A stretch of DNA of 44,190 bases from Wenzhouxiangella sp. (GTDB taxonomy: Bacteria; Pseudomonadota; Gammaproteobacteria; Xanthomonadales; Wenzhouxiangellaceae): contig SLQY01000011.1 in NCBI GenBank assembly GCA_007131235.1, forward strand, positions 1-44,190, read 5' to 3'. Of the stretch, positions 16,000 through 43,735 are shown one piece after another. The first letter of the stretch is position 1, and each line of letters opens with the position of its first letter. Below the pieces are notes generated by a model. That model made no database searches, was not told the origin of the DNA, and worked only from the letters and a program-made list of their open reading frames with translations. Position numbers and translations under genes: made by a program.

Positions 16000-16084
16000 T
16001 GGTGCCGAAGGCCGGACTCGAACCGGCACGGCTTTCGCCACTGCCCCCTCAAGACAGCGTGTCTACCAATTCCACCACTTCGGC
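16000..16084 (-). tRNA. tRNA-Leu (anticodon GAG)
   Basis: A complete 85-nt cloverleaf is visible on the minus strand. The acceptor stem GCCGAAG pairs with CTTCGGC, followed by discriminator A and an encoded CCA. The anticodon stem CTGTC/GGCAG encloses the loop TTGAGGG, so the anticodon is GAG, which reads CUC and CUU. A long variable arm (GTGGCGAAAGCCG) marks a class II leucine tRNA, and the T-arm has GTTCGAGTC. It lies 38 nt after secG and 104 nt before nuoA, in the same direction, so it must be cut from a longer transcript unless it has its own promoter. Confidence 0.97.
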
Positions 16085-38053: not shown

Positions 38054-38488
38054 ATGAACCCACGATCGACGCATACCGTTCGTATTCTGGGCTGGGCCGG
38101 ACTGCTGCCGTTCGCCTTTCTGCCGCTGATCGCGGCGATCGATACGGCCGAATGGCTGCAGCGGCTGCTTTTGACCTACGCCGTGATCATCCTGGCCTTC
38201 ATGGCAGGCACGCTGTGGGCCCGGCTTCTGCTCGCCGATGATCCCGGGCGGTTTCGCCTGATTGCCAGCAACGTGCTGGCCCTGGCCGCCTGGCCGGCGG
38301 TACTGCTGGACCTGCACTGGGCAGCGTTCTGGCTGACACTGGTATTTGGTGCCCACCTGCTGCTCGATGAACCCTGGCGCTCGCACGATCTGCCCGGCTG
38401 GTACCGGCGCCTCAGGCTCGGCCTGAGCAGCTCGGTGATCGGGCTGCTCCTGCTGACCGGACTGATCGGGGCCGGGCGTGTCTTCTGA
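38054..38488 (+). CDS. DUF3429-like small membrane protein
   Basis: The 144-residue protein has four predicted membrane helices (about residues 10-27, 38-57, 73-100 and 122-141) and short loops. The pattern RILGWAGLLPFAFLPLIA and the acidic-histidine segments suit the DUF3429 family, whose function is unknown. ATG at 38054 with AGGT about 9 nt upstream; TACAAT 31 nt before the start could be a -10 box. It overlaps the following ATPase gene by 11 nt, which ties it to the ABC operon. A role as an extra membrane component is possible but unproven. Confidence 0.8.
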   Translation: MNPRSTHTVRILGWAGLLPFAFLPLIAAIDTAEWLQRLLLTYAVIILAFMAGTLWARLLLADDPGRFRLIASNVLALAAWPAVLLDLHWAAFWLTLVFGAHLLLDEPWRSHDLPGWYRRLRLGLSSSVIGLLLLTGLIGAGRVF

Positions 38489-39158
38489 ACCTGTCCTCCA
38501 GGCCATTGGCGTGGGCCGGCATTTCAGTGTTGGCGCAGAGACCATTTCGATTCTCGATGGCCTGGACCTGAGCCTGGAACGCGCCGAGCGGGTCGCCATC
38601 ATGGGCGCGAGCGGTTGTGGAAAAACCACGCTGCTCCACTTGATCGCCGGCATGGACCAACCCAGCCAGGGTTCTATCCATTTAGCCGGCACCGATCTCG
38701 GCCAGCTGGCCGAGCCGGCCCTGACGCGCATGCGGGCGCGTCGCATCGGTCTGATCTTCCAGGACTTCAACCTGATAGACAGCCTGACGGTGGCCGAAAA
38801 CATCACCCTGCCGCTGTGGCTGAATCGCTTGCCGCAACCCACCGAATTTCTCAATGAGCTTAGCGATACACTGGCCATCCAGCCCCTGCTGGATCGCATG
38901 CCGACCACCTTGTCCGGCGGCGAAAAACAGCGCGTGGCCATTGCACGCGCGCTGATCCACCGACCTTGTCTGATTCTGGCCGATGAACCTACCGGGAGCC
39001 TGGACGAAGCCACGGCGACCCGGGTCATGGACCTGTTCGACCAGGCCATCAAGCGCAGCGAAGCTACCTTGCTGATGGTGACCCACAACCGCGAAGCAGC
39101 CGGGCTTTGCGAGCGCCGGTTGATGCTGCGCAACGGGTCCTTGCAGCCTGCCGAATGA
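38478..39158 (+). CDS. ABC transporter ATP-binding protein (YbbA/LolD/AttE-like)
   Basis: ATPase of the MacB/LolD superfamily, 226 residues. Walker A GASGCGKTT begins at residue 43, the Q-loop Gln is at 95, the signature LSGGE at 145-149, Walker B LILADEP at 165-171, and the switch His at 203 (VTHN). These ATPases drive permeases that transmit force to the periplasm rather than move substrates through a channel. The start is GTG at 38478, inside the end of the DUF3429-like gene. The stop overlaps the permease ATG (ATGA). Its length matches E. coli YbbA (228 residues). Confidence 0.95.
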   Translation: MSSEPVLQAIGVGRHFSVGAETISILDGLDLSLERAERVAIMGASGCGKTTLLHLIAGMDQPSQGSIHLAGTDLGQLAEPALTRMRARRIGLIFQDFNLIDSLTVAENITLPLWLNRLPQPTEFLNELSDTLAIQPLLDRMPTTLSGGEKQRVAIARALIHRPCLILADEPTGSLDEATATRVMDLFDQAIKRSEATLLMVTHNREAAGLCERRLMLRNGSLQPAE

Positions 39159-41581
39159 ACCCGCTGCTGCAGTTTTCCAGGCGCTTTTTGTATCGCCACC
39201 CCGGCCAGCTGCTGTTGGCCCTGGTCGGCATTGCTGCCGGCGTCGCCGTGGTCACCGGGGTCGCCCTGCTCCGCGACGTGCTGATCCAGTCACTGGACCT
39301 GGCCAGCGACGCCATCGCCGGGCGCGACAGCCTGCGTATCGAACATCCCGCGGGCAGGCTTGCCGAGTCGGTCTACGTTGACCTGGCCACTCGCGCCGGA
39401 TCGCCCGACCTTGTCCCGGTCTTGCGTGCCCGCGTCCGTCACCAGGGAGAAAGCCTGGAAATCCTTGCCCTTGACCCCCTCGCAACCAGCACCGGCCCGA
39501 TGGGCCTGAGTGGTCCGGCCACCGCTCCATTGCTGGGGTCTGCGCGCGGCGTCATGCTCAGCCAGGCCACCCTGGATCGCCTGCAGGCCAGTGCCGACGA
39601 GCCGCTGGTGGTGCGGGTTGCCGGCCGCAGTGCAACACTCGATATTGTCGCCGTTCTACCCAACCGCCCGGAAATCGACCAGCGCCTGATCATGGACCTG
39701 GCCAATGCCCAGGATCTGCTCAACCGGCGCGGCGAACTTTCCTGGATCGACGCCCCGATCGGGGCCAGCGCATGGCTGAGTCAACATTTGCCAGATGACC
39801 TTCGGTTGACCAGTGCCGATCAGCGACGTGACAGCGCCGCCAGACTGACCGCCGGGATGCGCACCAACCTGGCCGCGATGAGCCTGCTTGCCTTCGCCGT
39901 AGGCCTGTTCGTGGTTCATGCCGTCCTTGCTTTTTTGCTGGTTCAGCGACGTGGCCAGATCGGCATGCTGCGCGCCATCGGCGTGACCCCGGGACAGCTG
40001 CGCACCGTGCTTGCCGCCGAAGCCTTCGTCTTGACCGGCTTTGGTGCCTTGCTCGGCCTGGTTCTGGGGACGGTGCTGGCCGATGGCTTGCTTGACCTGG
40101 TCCGGGCGCCGGTCGCCGAAGTCTACGGACTGGTAACGGCCGGGACGGTTCGCCCGACCCTGCCGCTGTACCTGGCAGTCTGGAGCCTGGCAGTGGCCCT
40201 GGGACTGGCCAGCGTGGCCGGCGTGCTGCGCTCGGCCATGCGCATTGCTCCCGGTGAGCTGAGCCGCGATACGGACTCGCCGGCCGCGCTGTCAGATCGC
40301 ACGCTGGCGCTGATCGCACTGGTCCTGGCGCTGGTCGGCAGCATGAGCCTGGCGATTGAACGCGGCCTGGAGCTGGCACTGGCCGGGCTGTTGATGTGGC
40401 TGACAGCCGTTGCCTTGCTGGTGCCCGCCGCCGGCATGGCCCTGCTGGCTGGCTGGCAACGCCTGCGCCCGGCCAGTTTATCGGGTCGCGCCGTCGGCAT
40501 GCTGCGCCAGGCCCGGACGAGGCTGGCGCCGGCACTGGCCGCACTCAGCCTGGCCCTGGGCCTGAGCGTCGGTATGGCCATGATGGTGCTGGGATTCAGG
40601 GCGGCCGTGGACGACTGGGTAGAGCGGCTGTTGCGGGCGGATGCTTATCTGACGGTCAGCGCCGGACAAATCGACGATGACTTGCTTGCCGAGGTCGAGG
40701 CCTGGCCGGAGGTCGTTTCGATCTCCAGCGCCCGGCAACGCGAGCTACCGGATGGAAAACGGCTCGTCGGCTTTGACCTGCCCGCGCCGGCCTGGGCCGG
40801 TTTCGACTGGCTGGCCGGGGACTCGGCGACGGCCCGTCCCGACTTTCTGGCGGGCCGGGGCGCACTGATCAGCGAACCCATGGCGCGCCATGGCCAGCTC
40901 GCGGTCGGCGACAGCGTGAGCTTCATGACCCCTGGCGGCGAGCAGCGCTTGCCGGTGCTGGCGGTCTACCGTGACTATGGCAGCGATCGCGGAGTGATCG
41001 CGATTGACGGCAGCTTCTACCGGCAGTGGTTCGACGACCGACGGCGCGACAGTCTGGGCCTGTACCTGACCGATCCCGAGGCGTCGCTGGAGCAGCGCCT
41101 CGCGACCCTGCCGGTCGAAGCCGCACTGACTACCCGTGGCCAGGTCCGCGCCCAGACCCTGGCCATTTTCGATCGCACCTTCAGGATTTCCTGGGCATTG
41201 GCCCTGCTGGTTGGCCTGATCGCCCTGGTCGCCCTGGTCAGCGCCCTGCTCGCCCTGGGGCTGGAGCGCGGCCGTGATTACGCCACGCTGCGGGCCCTGG
41301 GACTGACCCGTTCCGGCCTGCTGGCCTGGGTCATCACCCAAACCACCGCGCTGGCTGCTGCCGCCGCCGTACTGGCCATTCCAATCAGTTTCGGCATTCA
41401 TGCCACGCTGTCGCTGATCATCCAGCCGCGGGCTTTTGGCTGGACCGTTCCGCTGAGCCTGCCGCTGACGCCCTGGCTCCTGATGCTCCCGCTGGCCCTG
41501 CTGGCCGGCGCCCTGGCCGGCCTGTATCCGGCCTGGAGCATCACCCGGCGCAACCCGGCACCGCTGCTCCGGAGTCGCTGA
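39155..41581 (+). CDS. FtsX-like ABC transporter permease, ten-helix type (YbbP/AttF-like)
   Basis: The 808-residue inner-membrane protein has about ten helices: one at residues 18-38, then a periplasmic domain to about 235; three FtsX-type helices at about 240-263, 288-312 and 337-358; two further helices at 383-400 and 405-433; one at 457-480; a second periplasmic domain; and a final three-helix FtsX module from about 690. Both modules have the cytoplasmic loop pattern (GQIGMLRAIGVTPGQLR and GRDYATLRALGLTRSGLL). Architecture and length match E. coli YbbP. Starts at ATG 39155 overlapping the ATPase stop. Transported or processed substrate unknown; lipids or lipoproteins are the usual ligands of this superfamily. 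Confidence 0.94.
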   Translation: MNPLLQFSRRFLYRHPGQLLLALVGIAAGVAVVTGVALLRDVLIQSLDLASDAIAGRDSLRIEHPAGRLAESVYVDLATRAGSPDLVPVLRARVRHQGESLEILALDPLATSTGPMGLSGPATAPLLGSARGVMLSQATLDRLQASADEPLVVRVAGRSATLDIVAVLPNRPEIDQRLIMDLANAQDLLNRRGELSWIDAPIGASAWLSQHLPDDLRLTSADQRRDSAARLTAGMRTNLAAMSLLAFAVGLFVVHAVLAFLLVQRRGQIGMLRAIGVTPGQLRTVLAAEAFVLTGFGALLGLVLGTVLADGLLDLVRAPVAEVYGLVTAGTVRPTLPLYLAVWSLAVALGLASVAGVLRSAMRIAPGELSRDTDSPAALSDRTLALIALVLALVGSMSLAIERGLELALAGLLMWLTAVALLVPAAGMALLAGWQRLRPASLSGRAVGMLRQARTRLAPALAALSLALGLSVGMAMMVLGFRAAVDDWVERLLRADAYLTVSAGQIDDDLLAEVEAWPEVVSISSARQRELPDGKRLVGFDLPAPAWAGFDWLAGDSATARPDFLAGRGALISEPMARHGQLAVGDSVSFMTPGGEQRLPVLAVYRDYGSDRGVIAIDGSFYRQWFDDRRRDSLGLYLTDPEASLEQRLATLPVEAALTTRGQVRAQTLAIFDRTFRISWALALLVGLIALVALVSALLALGLERGRDYATLRALGLTRSGLLAWVITQTTALAAAAAVLAIPISFGIHATLSLIIQPRAFGWTVPLSLPLTPWLLMLPLALLAGALAGLYPAWSITRRNPAPLLRSR

Positions 41582-42696
41582 TGCGCCTTGACCTGGCCAT
41601 ACTTGTCCTGGTCGTGACCGCCTTGGTTGCCTGGCTGGGCTGGCAAACGCGAACAACCGAGCCAGGCGTCGAAGCGATCGGTCTGGCCCAGGTACTGGGC
41701 GACGCACCAGCCCACTTCCGGCGCGTCACCGAACCGGTGGCGCTGGAATTCCCGCGCGATCACGGCGCTCATCCTGATTACCGCAGTGAGTGGTGGTACT
41801 TCACCGGTAATTTCGAAACCGCTGATGGCCAGCGCCTCGGATTTCAGTTCACCCTGTTTCGTTTCGCCCTCAACGAGGCCCAGACCGCGCAGTCGGACTG
41901 GGCCACCGATACGCTGTGGATGGCGCACCTGGCCCTGAGCGACGGGCGATCAAGGCGTTTCTTTCAGGCCGAACGCTTCGCCCGCGGGGCGCTTGAACTG
42001 GCCGGCGCCACTGAATCTCGCTGGTGGTTGCGCGACTGGGTAGTCAATGCCACGCCCAGCGGCTGGCACCTTGTTGCCGATGGCGGCGACTTCGCCCTTG
42101 AGCTGAACCTGGACCAGGTGCGGCCGCTGGTTCTGCAAGGCGATAGTGGCTACAGCCGCAAGGGACCCGAGCCGGGCAATGCCTCGCGCTACTACTCGGC
42201 CACCCGGCTTGAGGCCAGCGGACGCATCCGCCTGGACCAGCAATGGCTGGAGGTCACCGGCCTGGCCTGGCTGGACCGCGAGTGGGGATCGAACCAGCTG
42301 TCGGAGACCCTGGCCGGCTGGGACTGGTTTGCCCTGCACCTGGACGATGGACGCGACCTGATGGTCTACCGCTTGCGCGACCATGATGGCAATGCTTCGC
42401 CCTGGTCTGCCGGCGCGCTGGTCGAGCGTGACGGCAGCTCACGCACCCTGCAGCACACCGATTTCACTGCCGATGCGCTGACATGGTGGCGCGATCCCGA
42501 TGGTCAGCGCTGGCCCCTGTCCTGGCGCATCCGGGTACCCGACGCGGGCCTGGATCTGACCACCAGGCCGTTGTTCGAAGACCAGCTCTGGACGCGGTCG
42601 GTGCGTTACTGGGAAGGCATGATCGACGTCATCGACAGCGCCAGCGGCCAACCCCTCGGGCGCGGCTATACCGAGCTCAGCGGCTACGCCGAGTAA
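41581..42696 (+). CDS. AttH/CrtC-family lipocalin-like protein
   Basis: The 371-residue protein has an N-terminal membrane anchor or uncleaved signal (residues 4-21) and two lipocalin-like halves. The family motif SEWWYFTGN is at 69-77; WLDREWGSNQ and DWFALHLDDGRDLMVYRLR are further hallmarks. The family holds carotenoid 1,2-hydratase CrtC and the AttH proteins encoded with ABC genes in Agrobacterium. The ABC context makes AttH the better label here. No carotenoid genes are in the window. It shares one base with the permease stop (TGATG), so it is made with the transporter and may be its periplasmic partner or act on its substrate. Confidence 0.9.
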   Translation: MRLDLAILVLVVTALVAWLGWQTRTTEPGVEAIGLAQVLGDAPAHFRRVTEPVALEFPRDHGAHPDYRSEWWYFTGNFETADGQRLGFQFTLFRFALNEAQTAQSDWATDTLWMAHLALSDGRSRRFFQAERFARGALELAGATESRWWLRDWVVNATPSGWHLVADGGDFALELNLDQVRPLVLQGDSGYSRKGPEPGNASRYYSATRLEASGRIRLDQQWLEVTGLAWLDREWGSNQLSETLAGWDWFALHLDDGRDLMVYRLRDHDGNASPWSAGALVERDGSSRTLQHTDFTADALTWWRDPDGQRWPLSWRIRVPDAGLDLTTRPLFEDQLWTRSVRYWEGMIDVIDSASGQPLGRGYTELSGYAE

Positions 42697-42700
42697 GCGT

Positions 42701-43678
42701 TCAATGCGCGGCCAGCGTGTCGACCGGGGACAACGGCGGCCCAGACGGGGACTGATAGGAAGGCTGGGAAATCCGTTTGCCACTGCGAATGCCGAGCAAG
42801 CGCTCGACATCACCGACCGCAACACCACGCTTGAGGAGGTGGGCGGCAAAACTGTTGCGCAGGGTTGCGGCCGAGACACTGCCGCCTATCCCGGCCTGGC
42901 GGGCTGCTGACTCGATGATCTGGCGCCCTTCCGGCTCCGGCAGATGGCAGCGCAGGACCGGCCCATCGGGCCTGCCCGGCTCACCCATGTAAGGTCCGGG
43001 AAACAGAAACTGCCACATCCAGCTCCTGGCCGTGGCAGGGGCCGCGCGCAGGCCTGCCGGTAGCTGCGCGCCACCGTAGCCCTCGGCCAGCTCACGAATA
43101 TGCCTGAGCTTGAGCTCTTCCTGGTGGGCACGGATGGGATCACGCACCCTGGCCGGCAACAAGGTCTCGCGCAGCAACCGCCCATTGGTATCGCGCACCA
43201 GGATGCGATCCGGCTCCAGATCCCGAATGCGCAGACGCACACACTCCATCAAGCGCAAGCCCGAACCATAGACCAGCGAAGCGAGCAGCCAGTCGCTGCC
43301 GGTCAGGCAACCGAGCAGCTGCTGCACCTGCGAGGGGGTCAACAATAGCGGACCAGACTCACGCTGGAGCCGTTCAGCAATGGCGTCAAGGCCGTCCAGG
43401 CTGAGCACAAGCACGTGGTCGAGCAGAAACCGCACGGCCTTGAAAGCCTGGCGGCGCGCACCCGCCGAGAGCTGGCGGCGCTGGTCCAGTGCGGCCAGGA
43501 ACGCCTCGACGTCGGGCTCACTAAGCGCGTCGACCGGGCGATTCAAGTTGAATTCGAGAAACTGCCGGGCCCAGTACAACCAGGCCTTGCGAACGTTTTC
43601 ACTCATCTCTTCGCCGTCCAGCCGCGCCTGCATGCGGCTGATCAGTGACGATGAATCCATGCTGGGACTGCCATCCAT
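42701..43678 (-). CDS. integron-integrase-like tyrosine recombinase, catalytic residues degraded
   Basis: The 325-residue protein is collinear with IntI-type integrases: an N-terminal SAM-like DNA-binding domain (about 10-105), then a catalytic domain with LLASLVYGSGLRLMEC, in which R142 is box I. The integron-specific insertion is present (RHIRELAEGYGGAQLP through SWMWQFLFPG, about 192-228). In box II the expected His-Thr-Leu-Arg-His reads Ala-Thr-Leu-Arg-Asn (271-275), so R274 stays but both His are lost. The LLGH His is Ile297, and the beta-strand Lys is not evident. Y308 is the only candidate nucleophile and lies in an altered context. It is thus probably inactive, yet the frame is intact. 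It converges on the AttH gene with a 4-nt gap. Confidence 0.85.
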   Translation of the reverse strand: MDGSPSMDSSSLISRMQARLDGEEMSENVRKAWLYWARQFLEFNLNRPVDALSEPDVEAFLAALDQRRQLSAGARRQAFKAVRFLLDHVLVLSLDGLDAIAERLQRESGPLLLTPSQVQQLLGCLTGSDWLLASLVYGSGLRLMECVRLRIRDLEPDRILVRDTNGRLLRETLLPARVRDPIRAHQEELKLRHIRELAEGYGGAQLPAGLRAAPATARSWMWQFLFPGPYMGEPGRPDGPVLRCHLPEPEGRQIIESAARQAGIGGSVSAATLRNSFAAHLLKRGVAVGDVERLLGIRSGKRISQPSYQSPSGPPLSPVDTLAAH

Positions 43679-43679
43679 G

Positions 43680-43735
43680 CCATCACCCTTACCGTGATGG
43701 ATATCACACTAATAGTCCGGGTGCCTGGCTGTCAA
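43680..43735 (-). promoter_or_regulatory. promoter and start-site hairpin of the integrase-like gene
   Basis: On the minus strand a perfect -35 box TTGACA (43735-43730) is followed by TATTAG (43714-43709) after 15 nt, or TTAGTG after 17. Directly before the ATG at 43678 an inverted repeat, CCATCAC-N7-GTGATGG (43700-43680), places the likely ribosome site AAGG in its loop and right arm. The repeat could be an operator or a hairpin that controls translation. No LexA-type CTGT-N8-ACAG box is seen. Confidence 0.4.

Follow-up and report, generated by a model that had tools for sequence, protein, structure and literature searches.

Introduction

Integron integrases (IntI) have so far been known as recombinases, active or broken. 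Their I2 region accommodates the extrahelical bases of attC sites, and an IntI1 carrying the Y312F substitution gave no transfer (PMC4792948). Some proteins with the tyrosine-recombinase fold work in another way. MrpR (YopR), the master repressor of the SPbeta prophage, has this fold but no recombinase activity and represses through repeated operators (PMC10516654). In Xanthomonas, the chromosomal intI is vertically inherited and inactive; its inactivation is recent: beside cassette arrays that lie downstream of ilvD, the gene has acquired frameshifts, stops, and deletions (PMC12444791).

The gene analyzed here lies at 42701..43678 on the minus strand of a 44,190-nucleotide stretch of Wenzhouxiangella DNA, referred to in its entirety as the window. 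It begins with ATG, encodes 325 amino acids, and is called dIntI, for dead integron-integrase homologue. Like IntI (TIGR02249; VchIntI4, PDB 2a3v), dIntI has a core-binding domain and a catalytic fold, homology extending over the full length, the I2 region, both catalytic arginines (RI and RII), and the SPxD tail. Unlike IntI, it lacks the catalytic Lys, the Tyr, and the helix bearing the Tyr, reads xxLRN in place of HTLRH, and has a collapsed positive charge. It also falls below the TIGR02249 cut-off and sits at a fixed chromosomal locus without attI or attC context. By its function-defining features, dIntI is outside the working IntI family. With MrpR and with SroF of phage phi3T (PDB 9rd5, 9rgl), it shares a tyrosine-recombinase fold from which the recombinase chemistry has been lost, but the pattern of loss is the reverse of that in MrpR, which keeps Lys and Tyr and has lost RI and RII. 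MrpR and SroF are moreover phage repressors that reside in prophages and are not derived from IntI, whereas dIntI occupies a conserved chromosomal locus and its DNA binding is putative. The intI of Xanthomonas, from a related group, is likewise chromosomal, vertically inherited, and inactive; in dIntI, by contrast, the frame has been kept under long selection without cassettes. The literature searched, which lay largely outside subscription papers, does not describe any clade of dead IntI.

The comparisons below indicate that dIntI is a domesticated pseudo-recombinase rather than a decaying gene or an active recombinase. Its chemistry appears to have been dropped once, after which the protein was selected as strongly as active IntI, suggesting that IntI can be domesticated. 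Taken with MrpR and SroF, dIntI suggests that tyrosine recombinases turn into regulators repeatedly. It is a warning, too, that integrons can be counted where there are none when genes are annotated automatically as "integron integrase."

Homology, Fold, and Active Site

Sequence comparison places the homology of the open reading frame to IntI far beyond chance. The protein matches the NCBIfam integron integrase model TIGR02249 over residues 13–296 (E 6e-56) with 190 bits, a score that marks it as homologous but misses the curated family cut-off of 265, and it matches VchIntI4 (PDB 2a3v) over residues 27–299 (E 7e-31). The alignment to IntI4 crosses the I2 insertion, which only integron integrases have, without a large deletion. 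In the I2-containing region (residues 196–248; 42935..43093, minus strand), W220, W222, Q223, F226, and H245 are conserved, and the C-terminal SPxD tail is retained in the clade of dIntI proteins described below. The full-length alignment with IntI, integron-specific insertion included, that the first-pass annotation had claimed from the letters alone is therefore upheld by both profile and structure-based matches. An AlphaFold2 model has the IntI fold (mean pLDDT 87). Foldseek returned IntI4 (2a3v) as its top match (E 2.7e-16) and also lists the DNA-bound phi3T repressor SroF (9rd5; E 5.5e-5, TM 0.51).

Of the six catalytic residues (R, K, H, R, H, Y), only the two arginines are retained across the clade of 22 proteins, RI with one exception. 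In the window (all positions on the minus strand), R142 (43253..43255) occupies the column of RI, which is kept in 21 of the 22. N165 (43184..43186) replaces the catalytic Lys, lost in every member. The HTLRH motif has become ATLRN (A271 to N275; 42854..42868), with A271 in the HisII column; across the clade the motif reads xxLRN, RII (here R274) being kept and the second His replaced by Asn in 22/22. In the catalytic-column alignment, I297 (42788..42790) stands in place of the LLGH His (HisIII). Five members of one genus still have HisII, and HisIII persists in genome G031 and in a second family. Both His of HTLRH, the LLGH His, and the Lys are thus gone from the window protein, as had been proposed.

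The catalytic Tyr is absent from all 22 proteins. Y308 (42755..42757) lies outside the Tyr column and is not conserved in relatives, and the closest of these (G022, 74% identical) has no Tyr whatsoever after LLG. Alignment does not restore the missing residues elsewhere: the nucleophile has no counterpart, and the Lys and Tyr columns are empty throughout the clade. In the model, residues 300–312, where the Tyr helix would be expected, are unstructured (pLDDT below 50), whereas a canonical IntI modeled as a control from a similarly thin alignment has a helix at 300–309, likewise at low confidence.

Clade and Selection

A protein search for the same substitutions recovered a clade of 22 proteins, distributed over 14 Wenzhouxiangellaceae genomes and five genomes of a second family in the same order. 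Whole-genome searches detected a dIntI-type protein in 14 of 43 Wenzhouxiangellaceae genomes; those of the second family were found with a profile search, and two of its five genomes have tandem copies. In a maximum-likelihood tree of 83 IntI rows, the dead clade forms one side of a branch with support of 100/100, opposite 61 canonical rows, and the shared losses have a single origin. Sequence and tree indicate descent from IntI or from a sister lineage of IntI. Because the tree leaves the root unplaced, descent from an active IntI is argued from the conservation of catalysis among active tyrosine recombinases in general.

Beyond the two families, the best class-level matches that were inspected are canonical. 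Matches on plasmids and phages are all <60% identical (<=37.5% among the matches listed), and relatives from viral contigs or phage records reach at most 35% identity, those inspected being canonical at LRH. IntI-like genes on the viral IMG/VR contigs L211–L217, some of them at contig ends, combine a canonical core with C-termini altered after the Tyr (IYTAVHRVNHK vs IYTHV), which may have been cut at an attachment site. One relative, L033 from Wenzhouxiangella sp. DLM2.Bin32, seems identical to contig G022:C51, with which it agrees in length and match position.

Codon models with one ratio per set gave an omega of 0.048 for the five dIntI genes of the source genus (g1), 0.126 for five of a second genus (g6), and 0.067 for four of the second family, next to 0.054 for canonical intI of Wenzhouxiangellaceae. 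For the pair of the source genome (G000) and G022, the NG86 dN/dS is 0.18. These ratios point to purifying selection on dIntI, similar in strength to that on canonical IntI. The 325-codon frame in the window is uninterrupted, and each of the 22 copies has an open frame of full length, with no stops; the gene is not a singleton in decay but one of a clade of 22 under selection. The single-origin clade with the same losses, conserved synteny, omega values of 0.05–0.13, a conserved promoter, and open frames strongly support the proposal that selection acts on a role different from standard recombination.

Omega is 0.32 for the tandem set of the second family and about 1.7, on few changes, for one pair of orthologous tandem copies (28 amino-acid differences; dN 0.045, dS 0.027), which is near neutral or diversifying. 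The duplicates may therefore be relaxed or diverging. This pair belongs to tandem dead IntI genes of G170 and G217 (L131:10254-12498 and L130:1170-3754). In the neighboring copy pair, dS is 0.44, and the contrast suggests gene conversion or mixed strains.

Chromosomal Neighborhood and Promoter

Upstream of dIntI, across a 63-bp gap, is a codirectional amidohydrolase gene (PF01979; 43742..44188, minus strand) that is cut by the contig end. On the other side, a gene for a CrtC/AttH-like lipocalin protein (41581..42696, plus strand) converges with dIntI and is preceded by genes for an FtsX-like ABC permease (39107..41581, plus strand) and an ABC transporter ATPase (38478..39158, plus strand). All four are conserved neighbors, and nearly all complete loci of Wenzhouxiangellaceae show the same gene order: FtsX permease, CrtC/AttH, dIntI, amidohydrolase. 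Exceptions are G026, which lacks the amidohydrolase gene, and G013 and G035, in which CrtC/AttH is on another contig. In the second family, the neighborhood upstream of dIntI is partly common with that of Wenzhouxiangellaceae. Farther away in the window is a tRNA-Leu (GAG) gene (16000–16084, minus strand).

In many genomes without dIntI, including G011, which is close to the source genome, the amidohydrolase gene directly adjoins CrtC/AttH. Six changes in presence of dIntI are needed on the CrtC/AttH gene tree, which has many weak forks. Because synteny spans genera, repeated clean loss is likelier than repeated gain; with several clean losses, the gene is dispensable.

A −35-like TTGACA box (43730..43735, minus strand, thus read from 43735 to 43730) precedes dIntI and is conserved in 5/5 congeneric dIntI genes and in G035. 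The perfect box reported in the first-pass annotation is real, and dIntI is predicted to have its own conserved promoter.

Integron Context

Two regular-expression scans for attC missed sites even beside real arrays, so we used a covariance model built from local Wenzhouxiangellaceae arrays. It had no match in 20 dIntI loci (351 kb) and 22 in the 119 kb surrounding canonical intI, ten of these 22 control sites being the model's own training sites. The scan for attC sites thus found none near any copy of dIntI. Canonical IntI is nonetheless encoded by 10 of the 14 Wenzhouxiangellaceae carriers, several of which have attC arrays; in G026, the array and intI are about 3 Mb from dIntI by coordinates. 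No intI was detected in carriers G015, G022, G035, and G065, and G015 and G035 have no attC match genome-wide either. Because most of these genomes are metagenome-assembled, the absences are provisional: several of the intI-free carriers are incomplete, and G065 is 99% complete. The source genome itself has an intact canonical IntI gene at a contig end (L002; G000:C167:392-1231), a second canonical intI interrupted by TAA (L003; G000:C35:376-933), and attC-like sites on G000:C187.

Function of dIntI

The median net charge is +21 (12 to 27) for canonical IntI and +3.5 (−8 to +12) for the dIntI clade, and it is negative for most members from the second family. Of 33 positions typically basic in canonical IntI, 20 have nonbasic residues in most clade members, and the loss of positive charge is largest in the core-binding domain (from +8.2 to +0.4 and −1.6). 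This fall weakens the case for a DNA-binding role. Strictly conserved basic residues, however, are lost no faster than other conserved residues (retention 0.47 vs 0.53, p 0.52), and only overall charge declines; charge is therefore not decisive either way. The description of the DNA-binding part as intact was overstated, given this fall in charge and in basic positions. A DNA-binding regulator, one of the two roles first proposed, is plausible by analogy to MrpR and SroF even though the charge collapse speaks against it.

With a probability of roughly 0.6, we favor dIntI being a domesticated, noncatalytic IntI lineage that probably serves as a DNA-binding regulator or architectural protein. 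In a common ancestor of the two Xanthomonadales families, the helix with the Tyr and the catalytic Lys would have disappeared from a chromosomal IntI. The dead gene would then have become fixed between the amidohydrolase and CrtC/AttH-type genes and been vertically inherited. The tyrosine-recombinase clamp, formed by the core-binding and catalytic-fold domains, may grip particular DNA sites without cutting them; the phosphate-gripping RI and RII, the I2 region, and the SPxD tail would serve this clamp, and the role of dIntI would be regulatory or architectural, like that of MrpR in SPbeta. More tentatively, and at somewhat less than even odds, this would be the first known case of an IntI exapted as a conserved, chromosomally encoded DNA-binding regulator. 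Such a factor would act in host transcription or on the chromosome with a site code inherited from attI/attC recognition, and it would be present in two families, with tandem duplicates in one genus.

The large loss of positive charge, most pronounced in the core-binding domain and the second family, could also reflect a protein that has largely given up DNA binding for a protein–protein or scaffold role, for example with another enzyme or with the amidohydrolase system, whose codirectional gene is part of the fixed neighborhood. We regard this as unlikely, since RI, RII, the aromatic core of I2, and the SPxD tail stay conserved and the amidohydrolase persists without dIntI in many genomes. 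Retention of I2, the canonical IntI in many carriers, and the attC arrays in several of them would suit a modulator of the host integron, one that binds attC, attI, or active IntI and lowers cassette recombination as a dominant-negative partner. That role is improbable given the four carriers without detected intI, two of them also without an attC match, the lack of attC near dIntI, and the reduced basic surface.

Decay into a pseudogene would account for the missing catalytic residues, the genomes without the gene, and the near-neutral tandem pair, but not for 22 open, full-length copies, low omega, or the same substitutions, synteny, and promoter being conserved across large divergence. On these sequence grounds, the pseudogene reading is refuted for the clade, and we assign it a very small probability. 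Recombination with a different nucleophile, such as Y308, has an equally slight chance. RI and RII are kept and some members retain HisII or HisIII, but the Tyr and Lys columns are empty in every member, Y308 is not conserved, the model has no Tyr helix of the kind seen in the canonical control, and IntI1 without its Tyr (Y312F) gave no transfer (PMC4792948). The noncanonical recombinase that the first-pass annotation had offered as its other suggestion is accordingly not supported.

Upstream Palindromes

Directly downstream of the TTGACA box, a GTGA-N6-TCAC palindrome (43694..43707) spans the −10/+1 region. We take this motif to be a CRP/Clp-type site. It lies upstream of 8/14 Wenzhouxiangellaceae dIntI genes (at most 1 in shuffles) versus 0/27 canonical intI genes. 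In the five congeners, the box and this palindrome are conserved together. AGTGTGA-N6-TCAC is also present in two genomes between htpG and an M23 peptidase gene (L188 and L191, of G015 and G022), so that the motif is probably the site of a general regulator rather than a means of autoregulation.

A different palindrome, TGTAGG-N6-CCTACA, which resembles a GacA/UvrY-type box, is upstream of dIntI in G031 and the second family. As a candidate dIntI operator it was rejected: several Wenzhouxiangellaceae genomes without dIntI carry it, and the five source-genus genomes with dIntI lack it. An unrelated regulator more likely binds it. Scanned against Rfam, the palindrome loci gave a match only to a tRNA. 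Palindromes found upstream of dIntI occur elsewhere too. TGTAGG-N6-CCTACA is rare (L175, L176, L177 [3' of purA], L178, L129, L131, and L133), and within the second family it is confined to the dIntI genus, both upstream of dIntI and 3' of purA. It is also found in about a dozen Wenzhouxiangellaceae genomes, twice as a pair 21 bp apart.
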